A stretch of 36,004 nt of DNA from Acidobacteriota bacterium. GTDB lineage: Bacteria > Acidobacteriota > Terriglobia > Bryobacterales > Bryobacteraceae. The first letter of the stretch is position 1, and each line of letters begins with the position of its first letter. The notes under the pieces are model-generated. The model saw nothing but the letters and a program-made list of their open reading frames with translations. It did no database searches and was not told the origin of the DNA. The position numbers and the translations under genes were made by a program. Location of the stretch: contig VFZX01000031.1 of assembly GCA_016871015.1 (NCBI GenBank), positions 1-36,004 of the forward strand, read 5' to 3'. Positions 1,120-11,432 of the stretch are shown here, piece after piece.

Positions 1120-2871
1120 TTATCGCACCGCGGCCAACGCAAGCACCGCCCAGCTTGTCGCGGCCGCCGAAATCCACTGGTCGTGCCCGTGTGGGAATCC
1201 GCTTTCGAAAAACGGCTGGAACGGAAGCGCGCGCGTGCGGACGTACCAGGATCCATCGTCCAACTGCTGCTTCAGCAGGAACGACACGCCTTTGGCGTAG
1301 GCCGGATCCCCGGCCGCCAAGCCGCTCTGGCTTAGCGCGTAGAGCGCAAGCCCGGTGCCGTAGGCGTCGCTCGCGATTCCGGGAACCTGCCTCCACCCCC
1401 CGTCCGCCGACTGGGTGGCGAGCAATTCCCTCCGCGCCGCACTCACCGTTTCCTGAGGCGCACGGCCCCAGGCGAGCCCGGCCAGCCGCATCGCCTTGTC
1501 CTCGGTGAATTCGGCGGGGGTGACCATGAACCAGTCCACCGCCTTGGCGATCTTCGCGTCGATATCCTTCCGCCGGCCCGCCGGTGCGTAGGCGTCGATG
1601 GACCGCAGCGACAACGCGGTCACCGCCAGATCACTGTATTCCTGCGGAGGGCGGTGCGCGGTCGTGTGCCAGCTCCCATCGTGGCGTTGGCGTCCGGCGA
1701 GGTAGTGGACCGAAGCGTCGGTCATGGCATCGGCGGGATGTCCGGCTTCGGCCAGCGACCACAGAATGTAGGCCGCCGTGTCTTCGGCGCCAGGCACCCC
1801 GGTACCGAGCATCATGTTCGACACCCGGCCGCGCGCGACACCGGCATTCATCTTGATGGCCTTGGCCTGCGCCGCCTCGTCGATCTTCAATCCGCGCTTG
1901 CGCGCCGCCGCGGCCGCAGCCACCGGAAGCGAGTTGTTGTGGCACGACACGCATCCGCGCAGTTTGATCACCGCTTCTCCGCAGCCTTGCAGCAGCGGGA
2001 GGCTCTTGGCGATCGCCCCCGCCGGATCCAGGCTCTGCTCGCGCGGCTTCGGGACTGCCGGTTCGGGCTTCCCTTCCGGCGCGCCCGCCTGGCGGAGCGC
2101 CTTGACGATCTCCGTATCGCCGCGCCGCAACGCGACCGACAGCGCCGTCTCGCCTTCCTTGTTCACGTGCTTGGGATCCGCGCCCGCTGCAAGCAGCGCC
2201 CGGACCACCGCTGCCGACGAGGTATCGCGGTGCGCGGCGCGCAACAGCGGCGTGTCGCCCCGTGAGTCTGTGACGTTGGGATTGGCGCCCATCCCGGCCA
2301 GCCGCCGGACCATCTCCGCGTTCCCGCGCTGGGCGGCGGACCGCATTACGTTCGAAGTCTTACTGGGCTTCGCACCCGCGGCGATGAGAATCCTCGCGCA
2401 CCCAAGGCACTCGGTGGCAGCCGCCACGCCCAGCGCCCGCTCGAGAAACACGGGTGAAGGCTTCTTTGCCAGGAGCGCGGCAATCGCGTCCACATCGGCC
2501 CGTTGAACCGCTTCGCTCAACGGCGTTACGTTCGAGCCCGTTTCGGTCAGCTCAGGATCGGCGCCCGCCGCGAGCAGCGCCTCCACCGCGCCGAACGCAC
2601 CGGACCGGGCCGCGATGAGCAGCGGGGTCCGGCCGTTCCGGGTCCGTGCGTTGGGATCGGCACCCTTGGCCAGCAGCAGCTTGATTTTGGCGAGATCCTG
2701 CACGGCCCAGTGAAGAGCCGTCGCGCCGTCCGCCGCGGCCTCGTTGACCTTCGCGCCGTCCTCGATGAGCGCCTTCATGCGATCAAGGGATCCGGACGCA
2801 GCTTCACGCATCAACGCGGGCGTGTCGGCATGGAGCAGGGTGGTCGCGAGCAGAACCGGGAAAATGCGCAT
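1120..2871 (-). CDS. Exported ankyrin-repeat / c-type haem / squalene-cyclase-repeat protein
   Basis: A 583-residue protein with a short N-terminal signal peptide (MRIFPVLLATTLLHA). Residues about 16-270 are ankyrin repeats, with repeated G-A-D-P-N and TPLL/TALHWA motifs. A single CVSCH haem c attachment site follows near residue 310. The C-terminal third has several copies of the Q-x-x-DGSW/DGGW signature of prenyltransferase/squalene-cyclase alpha-alpha repeats. The haem site implies a periplasmic or extracytoplasmic location and c-type cytochrome maturation. The three-part architecture points to a protein-binding scaffold carrying a redox centre; no enzyme activity can be assigned. It is followed 11 bp later by tRNA-Arg on the same strand. 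The domain calls are strong; the function is unknown. Confidence 0.85.
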   Translation of the reverse strand: MRIFPVLLATTLLHADTPALMREAASGSLDRMKALIEDGAKVNEAAADGATALHWAVQDLAKIKLLLAKGADPNARTRNGRTPLLIAARSGAFGAVEALLAAGADPELTETGSNVTPLSEAVQRADVDAIAALLAKKPSPVFLERALGVAAATECLGCARILIAAGAKPSKTSNVMRSAAQRGNAEMVRRLAGMGANPNVTDSRGDTPLLRAAHRDTSSAAVVRALLAAGADPKHVNKEGETALSVALRRGDTEIVKALRQAGAPEGKPEPAVPKPREQSLDPAGAIAKSLPLLQGCGEAVIKLRGCVSCHNNSLPVAAAAAARKRGLKIDEAAQAKAIKMNAGVARGRVSNMMLGTGVPGAEDTAAYILWSLAEAGHPADAMTDASVHYLAGRQRHDGSWHTTAHRPPQEYSDLAVTALSLRSIDAYAPAGRRKDIDAKIAKAVDWFMVTPAEFTEDKAMRLAGLAWGRAPQETVSAARRELLATQSADGGWRQVPGIASDAYGTGLALYALSQSGLAAGDPAYAKGVSFLLKQQLDDGSWYVRTRALPFQPFFESGFPHGHDQWISAAATSWAVLALAAVR

Positions 2872-3326: not shown

Positions 3327-3923
3327 CTACAGGTACACCTTGGCGAGATGGAGATCGAACCCTCCGACCGGCCCCTCACCGTGAACGGTCATATCGGTGA
3401 CTACCTGAGGTGAGCCCTGTGGACGGTACACGGTCGTGGTTTTCCGGATCGGATCGACAAGCCATGCCAATTGCGCGCCGTTGCTGATCCATTCGTGCAT
3501 CTTCTCTTCCAACCGCGCCAAGTCATCGGATGGCGACCGGAGCTCAATGACGAACTCCGGGCACACCGGAAAGACTTCCAGGGCTTCACTCTCCAGGAAC
3601 GCCGCCACGCGGCTGCTCTCTGTCCAGGCGGCATCGGGCGAACGGCGTGCACCGTTGGGCAGCCGGAACAGCGTGCTGGAGTCTGTGACGATGCCCCGGC
3701 CATCGCTCTCCGCCCAGAGCCCCAACTGAAAGTTTATCTGGCTGTTCCTACGCCCCGATCGGAATCCTGAGTTCGGCATGATCTCGAATTCCCCTCTTGA
3801 ATTAACCTCAATATCGAGATCCTCGTGCTCAGAACAAAACTGCAAGAGCTCCGTATCCGTCATCGGCGGACCAGTAAGGACCACTGGGACGTCGAGCGGG
3901 AGGTGATCAATTGCCAGTCCCAC
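3327..3923 (-). CDS. Uma2 family (DUF820) PD-(D/E)XK nuclease-fold protein
   Basis: A 198-residue cytoplasmic protein of usual Uma2 length. The family core is visible: SPDAAW (residues 95-100, Asp97), CPEFVIELRSPSD (121-133, Glu127), EEKMHEW (139-145, Lys141) and AWLVDP (153-158). These form the PD-(D/E)XK restriction-endonuclease-like fold. Uma2 genes are often numerous in Acidobacteria, cyanobacteria and Chloroflexi, and their role is not settled. The gene starts 18 bp after the DUF59-fusion gene on the same strand and could be its last co-transcribed partner. Family identity is firm; an actual nuclease activity is unproven. Confidence 0.88.
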   Translation of the reverse strand: MGLAIDHLPLDVPVVLTGPPMTDTELLQFCSEHEDLDIEVNSRGEFEIMPNSGFRSGRRNSQINFQLGLWAESDGRGIVTDSSTLFRLPNGARRSPDAAWTESSRVAAFLESEALEVFPVCPEFVIELRSPSDDLARLEEKMHEWISNGAQLAWLVDPIRKTTTVYRPQGSPQVVTDMTVHGEGPVGGFDLHLAKVYL

Positions 3924-3941
3924 GACTCCATCCTACCATCG

Positions 3942-5705
3942 TCACAGCCCCAGCGCCGCCCGGCCCGCCGGAGTCAGCCGGTTCGATGACCACCCTGGCT
4001 CCCACGTCTGCTCCACCACAACATTGCGCACGCCCGGAACCTTCATCAACCGCTGGCGCACCGGTACGGAATTCCCGCCCGACCCGAACGAGAAGAACCC
4101 GATCCGCGGACGCCCGCGGTGCGGCATCGCCATGACCACGTGCACGGTGTCGCCGCGGACCCGCAAGTCGTACACGAGCCCCAGGTCCACGACGCTCGGA
4201 TTCGCCTTGTACAACTGTTCGTCCTTACAGTCGCGCAACGCCTCCCATAGCACCTGCTTCGAAATGGGTGAGTCTCCGGCCTCGCCCGGACGCGCGAGGC
4301 GTCCCTTCACCGCGGCTCCCGCCTGAGGCAGCTCGCCCTCGGAGACCTTCAGCGGATTCATCATCTCGCGCCGGATCCGCTCGACGAGCTGCGCTCCGCT
4401 TTCGCGGTAATGGAGCGCCAGATACGCATTCCGCTGGTGTAGGACAGTGCCCGCCTTCATCTCGCGTCCGGGAAGCGGGTAGCGGCTCCACACATGTCCG
4501 TGCCACTTGTAGAAGAACAGTGGCGCGCCCGAGTGCCGGACCGACGGCAGTCCCTCGGCGCGATGTTCGAGGAACAGTGCGATGAAGGCATCCTCCGCCT
4601 TCTTGTGCACGAAGCCCACGCCCCACAGGTTGTCCTGCTGGCCCTGCGGCACCGGACCCGTGTGCAGAGTCCCGCCCTCATCCATCCAGACCGAATCGGT
4701 GAACGACTGTCCCGAGAAGACCCACTCGTCGTCACGCAGAGCGTCGGCCTCGAAATCGGTGAGCGCCTCCATGCGTCCGGATTTGACGAGCCACGGAACT
4801 CCAGCGAGAAAGCGGTACTCGATGTAGACGTGCAGGCGGCTCGGCGAGAACACCGGATGCACGGGCGAGTAGGGAAATCCCCAGCGGCGCACGATGGTGA
4901 CCAGCGGTCCGCGGATCACTTCGTAGTCGGGACAGGTGTCCCACAGCGTGATGCGGAACTTCTGGAAGTTGCCAGATCCTACGTAGTCGTGCGCCCAGTC
5001 GATGCCCGGAGGCTCGCCGTGTCCCTCGCCGCCCGCGAACAGTTCGAGTCCGTGCTCGCGCTTGAAGGTGAGCCGCTCCAGTTGTCCCATCTGGCGAGAG
5101 AGTGACGCCTTGAAAAAGTCGTTCTCGATGTCGAGTCCGAACCCCTCGCCGCGCGTGACGAGGTCGGTGGAATACTGCGGGAACTCGGCGTCCGGATTGC
5201 CGAACAGCACCAGGTACTGGGCCCGTGTGTAGGCGGCCGAGCGCGCGACAAAGACCACGCGGCAGGACCACTCGTTGCCGCGCCGGACCTCGGAATGCAC
5301 CTGGCTCACGACTTCGGTCAACTGGCCGTCAGCGATGCGCGCAACGCGGATCTCGCGCATCGGCGAGGTGACCTGGGCCGCCGGCAGGCTGAGCAGCACC
5401 TCCACCGGTTCCGGCGCGCGCGCCACGCCGATGGTCTCGTCGTGCGCGATCACCTGAAAGTAGCGCCAGCCCACGGCCCATTCGCGCCATGGACGGGGAA
5501 GCGCGGTCACGGGGTGTGAGTGGCTGGCGGGCATGAGCGGCGTGCCAGGATTTTCCTCCTCGGCCTGTGACTGAATGATCGTGTTGCGCACGGAGTTGGT
5601 GAGGGCGCGCGCGACGCGGTAGTCGCGCCGCTTCCACGCCGACTCGAGCAGTTTCATCTTCTGTTCGAACGTCTCCGTCCGCTCCCAATATCGTTGTTCG
5701 GCCAC
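3942..5705 (-). CDS. Large beta-rich protein with C-terminal DUF59 (MIP18-like) domain
   Basis: A 587-residue protein. The start is GTG at 5705, with a good GGGAGGC Shine-Dalgarno 7-8 bases upstream. There is no signal peptide. Residues about 1-60 look helical. Residues about 65-470 are aromatic-rich and probably beta-sandwich, resembling C-terminal sandwich modules of polysaccharide lyases and alpha-mannosidases; I could not assign a family. Residues 478-587 match DUF59/MIP18, the domain of Fe-S cluster assembly factors: VVDLGLVYDLRV, then a WEPGWSSNRL end like the family's PPWsPdrm. The conserved Cys after the second strand is absent (MAMPHRGRPRIG instead of a TxxGC-type segment). The gene lies 12 bp after the permease/amidohydrolase fusion and 18 bp before Uma2. 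The C-terminal domain is confident; the role of the whole protein is unknown. Confidence 0.72.
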   Translation of the reverse strand: MAEQRYWERTETFEQKMKLLESAWKRRDYRVARALTNSVRNTIIQSQAEEENPGTPLMPASHSHPVTALPRPWREWAVGWRYFQVIAHDETIGVARAPEPVEVLLSLPAAQVTSPMREIRVARIADGQLTEVVSQVHSEVRRGNEWSCRVVFVARSAAYTRAQYLVLFGNPDAEFPQYSTDLVTRGEGFGLDIENDFFKASLSRQMGQLERLTFKREHGLELFAGGEGHGEPPGIDWAHDYVGSGNFQKFRITLWDTCPDYEVIRGPLVTIVRRWGFPYSPVHPVFSPSRLHVYIEYRFLAGVPWLVKSGRMEALTDFEADALRDDEWVFSGQSFTDSVWMDEGGTLHTGPVPQGQQDNLWGVGFVHKKAEDAFIALFLEHRAEGLPSVRHSGAPLFFYKWHGHVWSRYPLPGREMKAGTVLHQRNAYLALHYRESGAQLVERIRREMMNPLKVSEGELPQAGAAVKGRLARPGEAGDSPISKQVLWEALRDCKDEQLYKANPSVVDLGLVYDLRVRGDTVHVVMAMPHRGRPRIGFFSFGSGGNSVPVRQRLMKVPGVRNVVVEQTWEPGWSSNRLTPAGRAALGL

Positions 5706-5717
5706 GAAAGCCTCCCG

Positions 5718-7454
5718 CTATTTTTGGCTGAGCAGATCCTGGCGGTCGATCCGCTCGCCTTTGAATATTACCGAAGAGATGCGCTCCGTGGCAGAGATGT
5801 CGGTGAGCGGATTGCCGTCGACGATCAGGATCGAGGCCTCGTAACCCTTGCGGATCGCGCCGGTACGGCCGCCAATGCCAAGTGAGGTTGCGGCGTCAAA
5901 GGTAGCAGCGCGGAGAGCTGCGCTGGCGGGCACGCCGGCCTGGACCCACAACTGAAGCTCACGGTGGATCGATGGACCGTGGAAGACCAGCGGCTCGCCC
6001 GACCGGGTGCCCAACAGGAGTGGCGTTGAGAGTTCGAACGCGCGGCGCAGCTCCGTGGCGCGGCGCGCGGGATCGGGCTCGGGCGTGCGGGGAGGAATGC
6101 CGCCGTTCCGCAACAGGAGCGCCGTCCGTTGCAGGATGTCGCGCGAGAATGCGGACTGCTGGACCAGGGTTCGCGACAGCGGACCCGGATCACGGCGCGC
6201 AACCGCCAGCGCCGCCTCCTCGGCCGCCAGCGCGGGGATGTAGGTGGGCGCTGCCGGTGTGGCGACCAGTTCCGCGCCGGACCACCCCGCCGGTCTCTGA
6301 GCAGGCTGCTGCGCGACCGCGCCCACTGCCACCACGCCGCAGAACAACTGCGAGGCGAGCGCCTCAGGCGTGTCCCCGCCGGGTCCCACTTGGACGTCAA
6401 TGAGGCCGGGAAGCAGCGTCTTGCCCGCGGCCTCGACGGCATCGGCGCGCAGCGAATCCGGATCGGGGATTTGGTCCGAGTAAACCTCGGCGATCCGTCC
6501 GCCGCGGATCAGAATCGCGCCGTTTGGGATCACGCGTCCGTCGCCCGTGAAGATCGTGGCGTTGCGGATGAGGCGCGTGTGATTGCGTCGGATCTCGCGG
6601 TCGAGTTGCTTTGATTCGGCGATATGCTCGCGTGTCCAGGCCTGATAGGTCCCCATGAGGATGAACGGCGCGAGCACCGCGAGCACCCACGCCTTCGATT
6701 TCCGCGGCAGCCTCTCTTCCTTCTCCCAACGGAACAGCTTCATCGCAATGAAGGTGCCGAGCGCGATGGTGACAAGCATCGCCGCCACCGATTCGAGGTT
6801 CGCGGCGATCCCTTCGCTCCGCAGCATCACGTGCTGGATTCCGGTGTTCAGGTAGGCCGCCGGCATGAACTGCGCGGCGATCTGCGCCGCGGGCGGCAGC
6901 GAGCTCACCGGCAGGGTCGCGCCGCTGAGGAACAGCATCGGCATGTAGAGGATCTGGATCAGCACGTTGCTCTCCGCCACCGAGTTCGCCACCGATGCAA
7001 CGATCAGGCCGACTGCGCGGAAGGCGAAACTGGCAAGCGTCACCAGGATCAGCAGCGAGAGCCAGCGCTCGGGGATTGGCATCCCATGCGCGAAATGCGC
7101 GAGCAGGATGATCAGCACGACGGAGGGAAGGTAGAGGATCCAGCCGGTGACCATGCTCGCCACCAGGATCGGCGCCGGTGAGATCGGCGCCACTTTGTAG
7201 CGGCGCAGGATGCCGGTCTCGCGCTCGATCACCGCGCGGATGCCCGCCCCGAAGAGTCCGCTGCCGAGGATCCCGATGACGATCACCATGGGGATGACGC
7301 GGAGCATGGGTCCGGCGCCGGCGTTGCCGTCCGACATGAACTGTCCGAAGGCGAAAAAGAAGATCAGCGGGAAAACGTAGTTGAAGAACAGGACCGCGCG
7401 CTCGCGCACGGCCAGCCGCAGGTTCAACCGGATCAGGGCCAGGTAGGGTTTCAT
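5718..7454 (-). CDS. ABC-2 permease fused to a degenerate amidohydrolase-like domain
   Basis: A 578-residue protein in one uninterrupted frame. Residues 1-245 are an ABC-2 type exporter permease with about six membrane segments (roughly 22-38, 53-72, 104-121, 133-154, 165-185, 222-241) and the usual ERETG segment (78-81). An additional hydrophobic segment (255-273) follows. Residues about 294-578 resemble the edges of an imidazolonepropionase-like amidohydrolase: a beta-sandwich start, PGLIDV (349-354), SIHREL..W.QAG (495-507), ALRAATFDAA and GAIRKGYEASILIVDGNP. The metal ligands are missing: HxH is Q355-V-G and the catalytic Asp region reads GTRSG (482-486). The domain is also about 100 residues short. 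The seventh segment would place it outside the membrane (inference). The gene abuts its ATPase, whose stop codon is immediately before this ATG. Confidence 0.85.
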   Translation of the reverse strand: MKPYLALIRLNLRLAVRERAVLFFNYVFPLIFFFAFGQFMSDGNAGAGPMLRVIPMVIVIGILGSGLFGAGIRAVIERETGILRRYKVAPISPAPILVASMVTGWILYLPSVVLIILLAHFAHGMPIPERWLSLLILVTLASFAFRAVGLIVASVANSVAESNVLIQILYMPMLFLSGATLPVSSLPPAAQIAAQFMPAAYLNTGIQHVMLRSEGIAANLESVAAMLVTIALGTFIAMKLFRWEKEERLPRKSKAWVLAVLAPFILMGTYQAWTREHIAESKQLDREIRRNHTRLIRNATIFTGDGRVIPNGAILIRGGRIAEVYSDQIPDPDSLRADAVEAAGKTLLPGLIDVQVGPGGDTPEALASQLFCGVVAVGAVAQQPAQRPAGWSGAELVATPAAPTYIPALAAEEAALAVARRDPGPLSRTLVQQSAFSRDILQRTALLLRNGGIPPRTPEPDPARRATELRRAFELSTPLLLGTRSGEPLVFHGPSIHRELQLWVQAGVPASAALRAATFDAATSLGIGGRTGAIRKGYEASILIVDGNPLTDISATERISSVIFKGERIDRQDLLSQK

Positions 7455-8369
7455 CTACTCGCGCAGTCTCCGTCCAGTGATTTCGAGGAACACGTCTTCG
7501 AGCGTGGGCCGCTTCAGGTGGATGTCGGCGAGTTCGACGCCCTGCTGGTCGATCCACTTGACGAGATCGGCGAGGGTGCGCGCGGGCCGGGAGGAACTGG
7601 CCGAGATCGAGCGTCGGTCCGCACTTATGGTGAGGGACTCGCATTCAACCGGAGGTGTTCCTTCTAGCGGAGCGGCGAGCAGGATTTCGATGCGGGAGTG
7701 GCCGAGAGTGCGCGCCTGGATCTCGCGCGGAGTGCCGAGGGCGATGATCTTGCCCTGGTCGACGATCGCGACGCGGTCGCACAGCCGCTCGGCTTCTTCG
7801 ATGTAGTGCGTGGTCAGCAGAATGGTGCGGTGCTCGGCGCGCAGCTCCTCAATGAGCTTGTGGATTTCGAGCCGGACCTGGGGGTCGAGTCCGGTGGTCG
7901 GCTCGTCGAGGAAGATCAACTGTGGCTGGTTGATCAGGGCGAGCGCGAGGGCGAGCCGCTGTTTCTGGCCTCCGGAGAGGGTCCCGTAGCTGGCGTTTCG
8001 CTTTTCCCATAACTGGAGCCGTTTGAGGAGCTCGTCTCCATCGGCGTTGCGGGAGTAGAAGGCGCTGAACAGCTCGACGGCTTCGGCCACGGTGCACTTA
8101 TCGGGGAGGTTGGTGGCCTGGAGGCAGACACCAATGCGGTCCTTGATGGCGGCGGCGTTTCGATCGGGGTCAAAGCCCAAGACCTTGACTTCACCCGAGG
8201 TGCGCTGGCGGATGCCTTCTAGGATCTCGACCGTGGTGGTCTTGCCGGCGCCGTTGGGGCCAAGGAGTCCGAAGACTTCGCCCTGGCCGACGGTGAAATC
8301 GATGCCACGGACGGCGTGGACGTCGCCGTAGGATTTGGTGAGTCCACGGACGTCGATGGCGGGGGGCAT
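7455..8369 (-). CDS. ABC transporter ATP-binding protein (ABC-2 / DrrA-NodI type)
   Basis: A 304-residue ATPase of exporter type. Walker A is GPNGAGKTT (residues 37-45), the Q-loop follows, the signature is LSGGQKQR, Walker B is LIFLDEPTTGLD and the switch histidine is in LTTHY. The about 80 residues after the nucleotide-binding domain match the C-terminal extension of this subfamily. The stop codon directly precedes the ATG of the permease fusion, so the two are translated together and almost certainly form one transporter. The upstream outer-membrane barrel gene ends 27 bp before this start. The start lacks a strong Shine-Dalgarno. The substrate cannot be told from the sequence; drug, lipid or glycan export are the usual choices. 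Confidence 0.93.
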   Translation of the reverse strand: MPPAIDVRGLTKSYGDVHAVRGIDFTVGQGEVFGLLGPNGAGKTTTVEILEGIRQRTSGEVKVLGFDPDRNAAAIKDRIGVCLQATNLPDKCTVAEAVELFSAFYSRNADGDELLKRLQLWEKRNASYGTLSGGQKQRLALALALINQPQLIFLDEPTTGLDPQVRLEIHKLIEELRAEHRTILLTTHYIEEAERLCDRVAIVDQGKIIALGTPREIQARTLGHSRIEILLAAPLEGTPPVECESLTISADRRSISASSSRPARTLADLVKWIDQQGVELADIHLKRPTLEDVFLEITGRRLRE

Positions 8370-8396: not shown

Positions 8397-9845
8397 TCAA
8401 AAGCGGTAGGTCAGCTCCACCAGCCCAAACGCCGCCTTCCCCGGCCGCGGATAAACAAACCGCGCCGCCGCCCGCGCCTGTGCCACACCGAGATAGGTGG
8501 TCACCGTCACGTTCGGTCGCGCACGCCAGTCGATGTTGGTGTCCCAGAGGTTCGCGAGCGACCGGCTGCCGCCCGTAGCCCGCCCGGCAAAACCAAACGT
8601 CCTCGGCTGGAACGCTCCCCCTCCCGCCAGCCACAGATCATTCCGGTTGGCCAGCCGCAGCGCGTGGAACTCGTTCGAAATCGTCACCGCCGCGTGCGGA
8701 CGCAGCGTGAGCGCGCCCATGATGTCCTGGTTGTTCATCATGTTGAAGAACGGGAACCGCGCGTAAAAACGGGGTGTCGGCAGAACCTGGAAAAACGTGC
8801 CGTGCTTGTTGTCCGCCGGATCGTTGTCGCCGGATCCGTGGTAGAACCCGCCCCGGAACCAGGGCTTGAGCTTGGACGCCATCTTGGGTTGGAATCCCGC
8901 TTCGATCGCGATGGCTCCAGCGCCGTGATCGTTCCGGCCCCAGCTTCCCGTCTGCCCCGCGGCCCACACCAGGAAGTCCGCTGTGCCGCGCTTGGATTCG
9001 AACGCGTGGACCGAGTGGAATCCGAACGTAGCTACCTTTACCGGAGCGGTGTCGGCGCGCCGTACGGCCAGCGCGCGGTTGTCCGTCTTCACCACGTTGC
9101 GCGCGTCGTGGTAGTGCAGCAGGAACACGCGCGTGTCCGCCGAGTGCGCCTTGCTCCCCCAGTTCCGCGTGTAGCTGCCGTAGCCGAATGCGATCCGGTT
9201 CCAGCCCCAGCCGTCGGTCTGGAACACGCCGCGCGTCGGAACGGCGAACACCGCGGTGATATTGCGGTCCGGACGCGCGTAGGCGTAGTGCGCGCCGTCG
9301 AAGGCGCGATGCACGTGGGTGGGGTTGAACGGACCGATCAGGCGCATCTGGATCCGTTCGCGTTTCAGCGCCGCGAGCGTGGCGTTCTTGGGGACCAGCT
9401 CCAGTCCGTCGGCGAATTCGAACCGGCCGAAACGGACACTGTGGTTTGGCCCTCCCAGGCCCTTCACCCGCACAAAGACCTGCTTGGGAAAGATCATCGC
9501 CGTATTGCGGTTCCGCTTGTTGGCGTTGAAATACGTAGCGCCGAGGCCCATTTCGCCCTGGGCGCCGGGGGCCGTGGCCTGGTCCGGCAGCCCCAGCAGG
9601 ATTGGCGCGGCGAGTTCCACTTGCCAGTCGAAGTTCTTCCCGGTTTGCGAGAAGCTGATGCGTGCGAGCGTTCCCTGGAATGCATAGCTCGGATCACCAC
9701 TGGACGGCTGAAACCAGTCCCAAATCTCGGTACGGGTGCGAACGCTGCCCTGCACGGTCACGTTTCCGATCTTCAATGGCTTTGGCCCCACCTGTCCCGC
9801 CAAGGTGCAGCCGGACAGGATGGCCCACGGAATCAATCTCCTCAT
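8397..9845 (-). CDS. Alginate-export family outer-membrane beta-barrel protein
   Basis: A 482-residue protein. I chose the ATG at 9845 because it opens MRRLIPWAILSGCTLAGQ, a signal peptide; the longer frame to 10061 has no such sequence and would overlap the divergent sulfatase. The mature part is a run of alternating amphipathic strands rich in Tyr, Trp, Phe and Gly, starting GSVRTRTEIWDW and ending in an aromatic residue (LVELTYRF), the usual C-terminal signature of Omp insertion. The pattern fits the alginate_exp family of AlgE-like porins. An LSGC sequence could be read as a lipobox, but barrels are not normally lipidated. It is first in a closely spaced minus-strand set with the ABC genes. 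The transported substrate is unknown. Confidence 0.82.
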   Translation of the reverse strand: MRRLIPWAILSGCTLAGQVGPKPLKIGNVTVQGSVRTRTEIWDWFQPSSGDPSYAFQGTLARISFSQTGKNFDWQVELAAPILLGLPDQATAPGAQGEMGLGATYFNANKRNRNTAMIFPKQVFVRVKGLGGPNHSVRFGRFEFADGLELVPKNATLAALKRERIQMRLIGPFNPTHVHRAFDGAHYAYARPDRNITAVFAVPTRGVFQTDGWGWNRIAFGYGSYTRNWGSKAHSADTRVFLLHYHDARNVVKTDNRALAVRRADTAPVKVATFGFHSVHAFESKRGTADFLVWAAGQTGSWGRNDHGAGAIAIEAGFQPKMASKLKPWFRGGFYHGSGDNDPADNKHGTFFQVLPTPRFYARFPFFNMMNNQDIMGALTLRPHAAVTISNEFHALRLANRNDLWLAGGGAFQPRTFGFAGRATGGSRSLANLWDTNIDWRARPNVTVTTYLGVAQARAAARFVYPRPGKAAFGLVELTYRF

Positions 9846-9941
9846 GTAAAGAGTGTGACACCCTGGCCGCGGAAAATCGCAACCTCTGCGTAAAAGTTTT
9901 GTAACGCCAGGCGGCCTCGTGATTACGGTACACTCCATCCG

Positions 9942-11432
9942 ATGAACCCAACACGGCGGAGCTTGCTGGCGGGGGCGGCGGCGCCTGCGATTCTGCGTCC
10001 GGCACAGGCGCGGCGCCCCAACATCCTGTTTGCGATCGCAGACGACCAGTCCTTCCCGCACACATCGGCCATGGGGGATCCGGTGGTCAAGACTCCGGCG
10101 TTTGACCGTGTGGCGCGGGCGGGAGTGTTGTTCCGCAACGGATTCTGTGCGTCACCCGGGTGTGCGCCCTCGCGCGCAGCCCTGCTCACCAGCCGGAACA
10201 TCTGGCAGCTCGAGGAGGCAGGCACGCACGCATCGCTGTTCCCGAACAAGTTCGCCACCTACACCACGGTCCTGGAAAAGGCGGGCTATCACGTGGGGTT
10301 GACCGGGAAAGGCGCGGGACCGTGCAACTTCAAGGATGGGGGATGGGTGCACAATCCGGCGGGCAAGTCCTACGATGACCGCGCGCTGCGGCCGCCCGGC
10401 GGGGTCTCAAAGACGGATTATGCGGGAAACTTCAAAGACTTCCTCGCCGCGCGGCCGAACGGAACTCCGTTCTGCTTCTGGTTCGGCAGCCACGAGCCGC
10501 ACCGGACCTACCAGAAGGGCTCGGGTCTGGCGTCCGGGAAGCGGCTGGCCGACGTCGTGGTCCCGCCGTTCCTGCCGGACACCGAAGAGGTGCGGTCCGA
10601 CCTGTTGGACTACCTCACCGAGGTCGAGTACTTCGACCGTCAATTGGCGAAACATCTCGAGCTGCTCGATCAGGCCGGGGAGTTCGAAAACACGATTGTC
10701 GTGGTGACCGCTGACAACGGAATGTCGTTCCCGCACGCGAAGGCGAATCTGTACGACTACGGCTGGCATCTGCCACTGGCGATTTCCTGGCCCGCACGGG
10801 CACAGGGCGGCCGCACGGTGACCGACCTGGTGGGTTTCATCGATCTGGGACCGACGTACCTGGAAGCGGCGGGAATCCCGAAGCCCGCAACGATGATGGG
10901 CCGCGGCATTCTAAACATCTTGTCGTCCACACGCCAGGGGCTCGTGGATCCTTCGCGTGACCATGCGGTCGCCGGCCGGGAACGCCACTCGCATGCCCGG
11001 TTCGACAACCTGGGATACCCGGCGCGCGCCCTCCGCACCAGCCAGCACCTCTACATCCGTAACTTCAAGCCGGACCGGTGGCCCGCGGGCGATCCGGAAC
11101 TTTTCGCCGACATCGACAGTGGTCCGAGTAAACAGTACATGATGACGCGTCCGCAGGATCCGCTCTACGGGCCCTCGTTCGCCAAGCGGCCTGCTGAAGA
11201 GCTGTTCGATGTCGCCAAGGACCCCGGGTGCATCACCAACCTGGCCGGATCCAAGGCGCACGCCGGGACGCTCGGACAGCTTCGCGGGCGGCTGGAGAAG
11301 ATCCTCCGCAGCCAGGGCGACCCCAGAATGCGCGGCGGTGAGATCTTCGACTCCTATCCACGGCATTCTCCGATGCGTCCCGAGTTGGGCGGATTCGCCG
11401 GGCGCGGAGCCTATAATCCAAAGTACAAGTAG
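9942..11432 (+). CDS. Secreted type I sulfatase (formylglycine-dependent), Tat signal
   Basis: A 496-residue sulfatase-family hydrolase. The N-terminus has a twin-arginine signal (TRRSLLAGAAAPAILRPAQA), so it is probably exported folded by Tat. After it comes PNILFAIADDQ with the metal-binding Asp pair (34-35). The sulfatase signature CAPSR starts at Cys74, which would be converted to formylglycine by a maturase not present in this window. VVTADNG matches the second metal site. Likely substrates are sulfated polysaccharides or sulfate esters; the sequence does not say which. The gene is divergent from the alginate-export barrel across 96 bp and is followed 12 bp later by a small orphan gene. 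The family call is strong. Confidence 0.93.
   Translation: MNPTRRSLLAGAAAPAILRPAQARRPNILFAIADDQSFPHTSAMGDPVVKTPAFDRVARAGVLFRNGFCASPGCAPSRAALLTSRNIWQLEEAGTHASLFPNKFATYTTVLEKAGYHVGLTGKGAGPCNFKDGGWVHNPAGKSYDDRALRPPGGVSKTDYAGNFKDFLAARPNGTPFCFWFGSHEPHRTYQKGSGLASGKRLADVVVPPFLPDTEEVRSDLLDYLTEVEYFDRQLAKHLELLDQAGEFENTIVVVTADNGMSFPHAKANLYDYGWHLPLAISWPARAQGGRTVTDLVGFIDLGPTYLEAAGIPKPATMMGRGILNILSSTRQGLVDPSRDHAVAGRERHSHARFDNLGYPARALRTSQHLYIRNFKPDRWPAGDPELFADIDSGPSKQYMMTRPQDPLYGPSFAKRPAEELFDVAKDPGCITNLAGSKAHAGTLGQLRGRLEKILRSQGDPRMRGGEIFDSYPRHSPMRPELGGFAGRGAYNPKYK

Follow-up and report, generated by a model that had tools for sequence, protein, structure and literature searches.

The locus considered here raises the question of whether a gene that joins an exporter permease to an amidohydrolase devoid of metal ligands encodes a genuine protein, and what such a domain might do on a transporter. 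The gene lies in a stretch of 36,004 nucleotides, hereafter the window, which corresponds to contig VFZX01000031.1 of assembly GCA_016871015.1, from an Acidobacteriota bacterium of the family Bryobacteraceae. A preliminary description of this DNA, made from its letters alone, had read the gene as a true fusion without an intact active site, whose remnant enzyme is placed outside the membrane. Those points stand, the last of them as the most likely location, but the description missed that the same design can be intact.

The fused gene and its ATPase partner

The reading frame runs without a stop through both parts, as the preliminary description had it, and each part has a Pfam match above its curated cut-off: ABC2_membrane (PF01061) over residues 5-210 (74.1 bits against 26.9) and Amidohydro_1 over residues 496-568 (39.8 bits against 25). 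The features of the gene and of its partner are the following.

5718..7454, minus strand (7454 -> 5718): fused gene, 578 codons plus stop; stop-free open frame, AlphaFold pLDDT 93.1, pTM 0.87
6705..7454, minus strand: ABC-2 permease part, residues 1-250, six membrane helices; ABC2_membrane match, model helices and fit to 8yzp_A
6633..6704, minus strand: seventh membrane segment, residues 251-274; model helices 251-260 and 262-274, and unfused permeases
6405..6599, minus strand: first part of the beta-sandwich, residues 286-350; model strands, median omega 0.156 in ligand-lost pairs
6384..6392, minus strand: former HxH motif, now Q355-V356-G357; alignment
6243..6260, minus strand: region of the lost block, residues 399-404; pairwise alignment and block comparison, the exact place being alignment-dependent
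6003..6005, minus strand: former catalytic Asp, now R484; alignment
5721..6182, minus strand: C-terminal part, residues 425-578, with the barrel end and the remaining beta-sandwich; Amidohydro_1 at 496-568, H492, G493, E499 and R571 conserved
7455..8369, minus strand: ABC ATPase gene, 304 amino acids; ABC_tran 108.6 bits, its stop abutting the start of the fused gene with no base between

The ATPase harbors the motifs of a transport partner, namely Walker A (GPNGAGKT), the signature (LSGGQ) and Walker B (LIFLDEP). An ATPase relative is found directly upstream of 158 of the 167 distinct permease-matching proteins extracted; of the remaining nine, seven are no more than 350 bases away from where the examined stretch ends, leaving L044 and L166. 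In the ATPases that precede ligand-lost or 'del' proteins, Walker A was recognized in 60/63, the signature in 62/63 and Walker B in 60/63, several of the misses being partial matches. The fused gene and the upstream ATPase gene would form a two-gene ABC-2 exporter.

No frequent neighbor other than the ATPase emerged from rough gene calling on loci of unequal length. A DJ-1/PfpI-like gene, so named from the appearance of its sequence, occurs just before the ATPase gene at 30 loci, 20 of which belong to the ligand-lost or 'del' class. The window's own neighbors at 3327-3923, 3942-5705 and 8397-10061 were absent from the other loci compared, many of which are too short to reach that far. The frame just upstream of the ATPase gene (8397-10061, minus strand, 554 amino acids) has no Pfam match. 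On the other side, a 587-amino acid protein (3942-5705, minus strand), which starts 12 bases past the end of the fused gene, has a weak C-terminal match to FeS_assembly_P (DUF59-type), below cut-off. Farther away, a 583-amino acid protein (1120-2871, minus strand) combines ankyrin repeats and squalene-hopene-cyclase-like repeats, with a CVSCHN motif in between. Involvement in a defense system was also considered and set aside: PADLOC assigns the fusion protein to no family, and its matches to the ATPase look like generic ATPase similarity.

Predicted structure and topology

The AlphaFold model of the window protein shows six membrane helices followed by a kinked seventh (251-260 and 262-274), in agreement with the seventh hydrophobic segment noted previously, then a helix at 276-290 and the strands of the sandwich. 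By hydropathy alone, the seventh segment of the window protein is a borderline case (1.42 over 19 residues), and 138 of 161 aligned relatives reach at least 1.5. The unfused permeases L042, L044-L048 and L242 end in the same segment, indicating that the seventh helix can occur without the enzyme. The membrane part of 8yzp_A superimposes on residues 1-251 with a Z score of 21.6. In ABC-2 permeases the N-terminus is usually cytoplasmic; given such an N-terminus and a seventh helix, the enzyme domain would therefore lie outside. The location of the remnant is thus most likely extracytoplasmic.

The amidohydrolase fold, a sandwich plus a barrel, is recognizable in the remnant in a partly reduced form. 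Residues 291-569 fit the prolidase structure 2qs8 with Z 25.9 over 249 residues at 2.8 A, and residues 291-572 fit 3mtw with Z 24.9 over 251 residues. The superpositions that Foldseek itself gives are poor for the window model (rmsd 10-16) and better for the model of the intact relative L051, e.g., 5.1 to 2qs8. Barrel strands 1, 2 and 3 of the window model are residues 351-356, 374-379 and 395-398, and the weakest block of its enzyme part is 381-390 (pLDDT 66). The intact L051 model (pLDDT 88.5) contains barrel strands 1 to 7, and in both models the eighth strand is represented only by isolated bridge residues. The high confidence of the window model may be due in part to the presence of full-length relatives in its alignment.

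Loss of the metal site and of the middle of the barrel

The ligands of subtype I, two-metal amidohydrolases are defined as HxH, a carboxylated K, H, H and D (PMC11342369). To assign these positions, an intact fused relative was aligned to Cc2672 (3mtw) and to 2qs8, and HxH, K, H, H and D coincided. None of the six ligands is left in the window protein, which has Q, G, -, -, - and R at their positions. The HxH segment reads LIDVQVGP, the two histidines being replaced by Q355 and G357, and the Asp is replaced by R484 within GTRSG, as had been observed from the sequence; K, H and H are absent along with their strands, so that the barrel is not the complete eight-stranded one.

The shortening is larger than the approximately 100 residues first estimated, since the window protein has 578 residues compared with 729 in its two nearest relatives, i.e., 151 fewer. 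A pairwise alignment with one of these, L137, places gaps of 33 and 95 residues on either side of residues 400-403. Among the 153 complete fused proteins compared, 94 have the complete HHKHHD set and the other 59 lack one ligand or more. Thirty-two of those 59 are short forms of 564-629 residues, all of them without strands 4 and 5 and 28 of them also without strand 6. The missing block corresponds approximately to residues 422-555 of intact L137, with edges that vary by lineage and depend on the alignment (examples in L137 numbering are 425-553, 436-536, 430-535 and 422-551). The earlier view that the protein is unlikely to be active hence holds for the window protein, which has no intact active site, but not for the design as such, which is not inactive by nature.

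Distribution of the fusion

The protein sequences are open frames that begin close to the aligned start, independent of annotation, and the compared set is whatever the searches returned rather than a random sample. Among the 167 extracted proteins, 161 were aligned, leaving out L044-L048 (unfused, from other families) and L218 (in-frame stop). The 153 fused proteins retained from the alignment exclude L042 (unfused), six cut by contig ends (L078, L107, L122, L125, L070 and L039) and L088 (broken frame). The family name of the relatives is taken from the depositors' contig labels (Bryobacterales, Bryobacteraceae, Candidatus Solibacter).

A profile of the fusion matched 164 of 237 genomes of the family at E<=1e-60, a count that accepts the weakest matches on score alone and includes a few that are permease-only or cut by a contig end. 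The window's genome has one fusion gene, its other matches covering one part only. In an even sample of the phylum (396 genomes), only five matches were found at E<=1e-90: the window's own, the fusions L241 and L244, an enzyme lacking the permease (L243) and a permease lacking the enzyme (L242). Only 15 of 72,556 plasmid records gave a match, and none covers more than 80% of the query. The fusion is also present on contigs labeled Verrucomicrobia, Chthoniobacterales or Spartobacteria (L078, L098, L113, L119, L127 and L128), and in the permease tree these proteins cluster with those of two genomes from the window's family. All six ligands are present in five of the six, and L078 is truncated by its contig end before the Asp. 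Going by the depositors' labels, these cases may reflect horizontal transfer. The record of L120 is titled Arcobacter sp., probably a mislabel, and an identical protein (L016, G045) occurs in a genome of the window's family.

This distribution bears on whether two genes might have been joined by an assembly or sequencing error. The window is an entire 36 kb contig of a 720-contig assembly, a setting in which such a join might be suspected. However, the fusion recurs across many genomes, short forms are also present in assemblies of approximately one to three contigs (G208, G253 and G259), and nearly the same block is missing in frame in 31 other short forms, all of which makes an artifact extremely improbable. 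The preliminary description had proposed this search and had named separate genes with a join here, or relatives without a conserved second domain, as findings that would speak against it. Neither separate genes nor a join was seen at this place, and the second domain is conserved in the relatives.

Repeated inactivation of the enzyme

The two nearest relatives of the window protein, L137 and L053, are both intact and group with it with 99% support in the permease tree; the loss of its ligands thus occurred on its own branch. Over the whole permease tree, 25 losses are counted from an intact ancestor, or 23 and 14 when branches below 80% and 95% are collapsed, respectively. These counts presume that the ancestor was intact and that ligands were never regained, with lost branches pooled at unresolved forks, and the trees are of the 'quick' kind, built from 283 permease columns. 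In a tree of 57 rows hand-picked from the 153, the short or full label takes at least nine changes, and a single clade of the 23 short rows, hence one shared origin for the short form, is rejected (p-AU 2.5e-7).

The order of events varies, as L164 is nearly full-length yet ligand-lost and adjoins the short L188, and L173, L176 and L178 are short with HxH retained. None of the six ligands is missing from the distant L241, L243 and L244, which favors an intact ancestor; in the enzyme-domain tree, where L244 is a very long branch, these three and the fused forms are split from stand-alone enzymes by a 99% branch. As a control, stand-alone Cc2672-like genes were searched in 61 genomes of the family, and 29 of 30 loci had six ligands, the other being partly masked; this control is biased toward intact enzymes because the loci are the best scorers of an active-enzyme profile. 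Taken together, the sequences indicate that the enzyme was intact at first and was inactivated many separate times, the window representing one of these losses.

Selection on the remaining domain

Selection was estimated by NG86 on pairs at 78 to 98.5% permease identity, which share branches and in many of which synonymous sites are near saturation; depending on the region, 37-44 of the 45 ligand-lost pairs could be used, and 84-101 of the 105 intact ones. For the permease, residues 286-355, the barrel remnant and residues 425 to the end, the median omega values are 0.090, 0.156, 0.229 and 0.176 in the ligand-lost pairs and 0.082, 0.102, 0.102 and 0.106 in the intact ones. In the same order, the window protein gives 0.16, 0.27, 0.44 and 0.33 with L137, and 0.24, 0.23, 1.03 and 0.27 with L053, while the two intact relatives compared with each other give 0.17, 0.19, 0.23 and 0.22. 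Pairs with L169 or L170 have omega values of 0.40 to 0.76 in the barrel part. Purifying selection on the enzyme part of the ligand-lost forms is relaxed but present.

The relaxation might mean that the pump alone matters and that in many lineages a useless enzyme domain is slowly shrinking under little selection. Omega in the enzyme part is indeed approximately 1.5 to 2.2 times higher in ligand-lost than in intact pairs, lengths grade from 676 to 567 residues within one clade, and L042 and L242 lack the domain altogether, implying that it is dispensable and not needed everywhere. Nevertheless, the median omega is well below 1, and D353, G493 and R571 do not vary among 31 ligand-lost sequences, with H492 at 0.97 and E499 at 0.90 (the sample consists of 31 hand-picked rows of the 59 ligand-lost and 32 of the 96 all-ligand rows). 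Moreover, one clade of 17 rows is wholly short and has kept the short domain across long branches, which shows that the half-barrel persists, and among the rows compared only L088 and L218 have an interrupted domain. Mere decay of a useless domain is therefore considered unlikely, although it deserves to be weighed.

The conserved polar residues D353, H492, E499 and R571 might alternatively belong to a new active site, such that the cut barrel continues to perform chemistry with other residues. Yet all four are as conserved in intact forms, and are hence more likely structural, and the ligand columns of ligand-lost sequences scatter (Q, G, R, D, N, A and others) with no shared new set. A new catalyst thus appears quite improbable.

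A model for the origin and role of the remnant

The explanation that we regard as probable is that an exporter hydrolase on the outer side was turned into a non-catalytic accessory domain still serving the pump; its location, the direction of transport, the ancestral reaction and the present role are all inferred, and the computations themselves show the architecture, the missing ligands, their repeated separate loss, the recurrently absent block and the purifying selection that remains. In the ancestor, the seventh crossing of the permease chain would have put a two-metal amidohydrolase of the Cc2672/prolidase group on the outer face, where its target might have been an amide or peptide bond, either within the exported molecule or within something encountered outside. 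This putative reaction is suggested by analogy with the peptidase and amidase names of the solved relatives. In the lineage of the window, the metal site would have been lost and strands 4 to 6 or 7 cut out of the middle of the barrel; what stays, namely strands 1-3, the end of the barrel and the beta-sandwich, would form a compact domain with no enzymatic function. The remnant may have been kept because it is still useful to the pump, most likely by shaping or gating the outer side or by binding cargo or a partner. The binding module proposed in the preliminary description is a plausible role.

An arrangement in separate genes is found in the distant genome G309 (L275:4740-8712). The enzyme encoded there is intact, with what appears to be a single membrane anchor at its N-terminus and with a CIA30 domain at its C-terminus; its gene is followed after 5 bases by an ABC ATPase gene and, after a further 14 bases, by an ABC2_membrane_3 permease gene. 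In the enzyme-domain tree, this enzyme sits with the fused ones and off the stand-alone ones. The occurrence of the same parts in two layouts argues that enzyme and exporter act together. A 905-amino acid fusion in G648 (L276:4749-7466, the same protein as L241), whose start is overlapped by its ATPase gene, has a C-terminal extension that resembles the end at which the G309 enzyme carries its CIA30 domain (48% over residues 14-659).

For the family as a whole, we lean slightly toward the view that repeated, independent losses of the same strands converted exporter-bound amidohydrolases into non-catalytic half-barrels, which would represent a new extracytoplasmic domain for cargo binding or gating and a series of stages from enzyme to structural element. 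The family offers a replicated natural experiment, with one fused enzyme domain, one membrane anchor and 14 to 25 separate inactivations. It raises the questions of how a TIM barrel can do without three or four of its strands, whether the domain is retained on the transporter for catalysis or for another reason, and what cargo the exporter carries. In practical terms, 59 of the 153 genes compared would be misannotated if they were called plain amidohydrolases.

Comparison with known systems

As the preliminary description anticipated, no described transporter of this design was found: a full-text search of open-access literature returned neither an ABC-2/amidohydrolase fusion nor a pseudo-amidohydrolase on a transporter. 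The enzyme group closest in both sequence and structure is that of Cc2672, Xaa-Pro dipeptidase and ochratoxinase (3mtw, 2qs8 and 4c5y), rather than the imidazolonepropionases initially suggested. The best NCBIfam model for the window protein is the Xaa-Pro dipeptidase of Caulobacter type (NF051886; 67.6 bits against a cut-off of 500), and imidazolonepropionase (TIGR01224) scores 34.3 bits against 298.15, both below cut-off. The window remnant fits all three structures with Z scores of 23 to 26, and intact fused forms share the six ligand positions of their sequence relatives, the Cc2672-type carboxypeptidases. In contrast, the window protein lacks the six ligands and strands 4 to 6, and the known members found are separate enzymes with no permease attached.

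On the transporter side, the system resembles DrrAB-type ABC-2 exporters in its adjoining ATPase and permease genes, for which drrA (274.9 bits against a cut-off of 312.45) and drrB (49.1 bits against 223.05) are the best transporter models of NCBIfam. It differs in that both scores are under the curated cut-offs and that the window protein adds a seventh helix and a large domain, predicted to be on the outer side. Transporters with a built-in hydrolase are known, namely peptidase-containing ABC exporters (PCAT) and ABC-2 permeases fused to M1-type peptidases, and they have in common with the present family a hydrolase domain on the transporter chain. However, the peptidase domains of PCAT are N-terminal and cytoplasmic, whereas the domain described here is C-terminal, is a TIM-barrel amidohydrolase and has been repeatedly inactivated.
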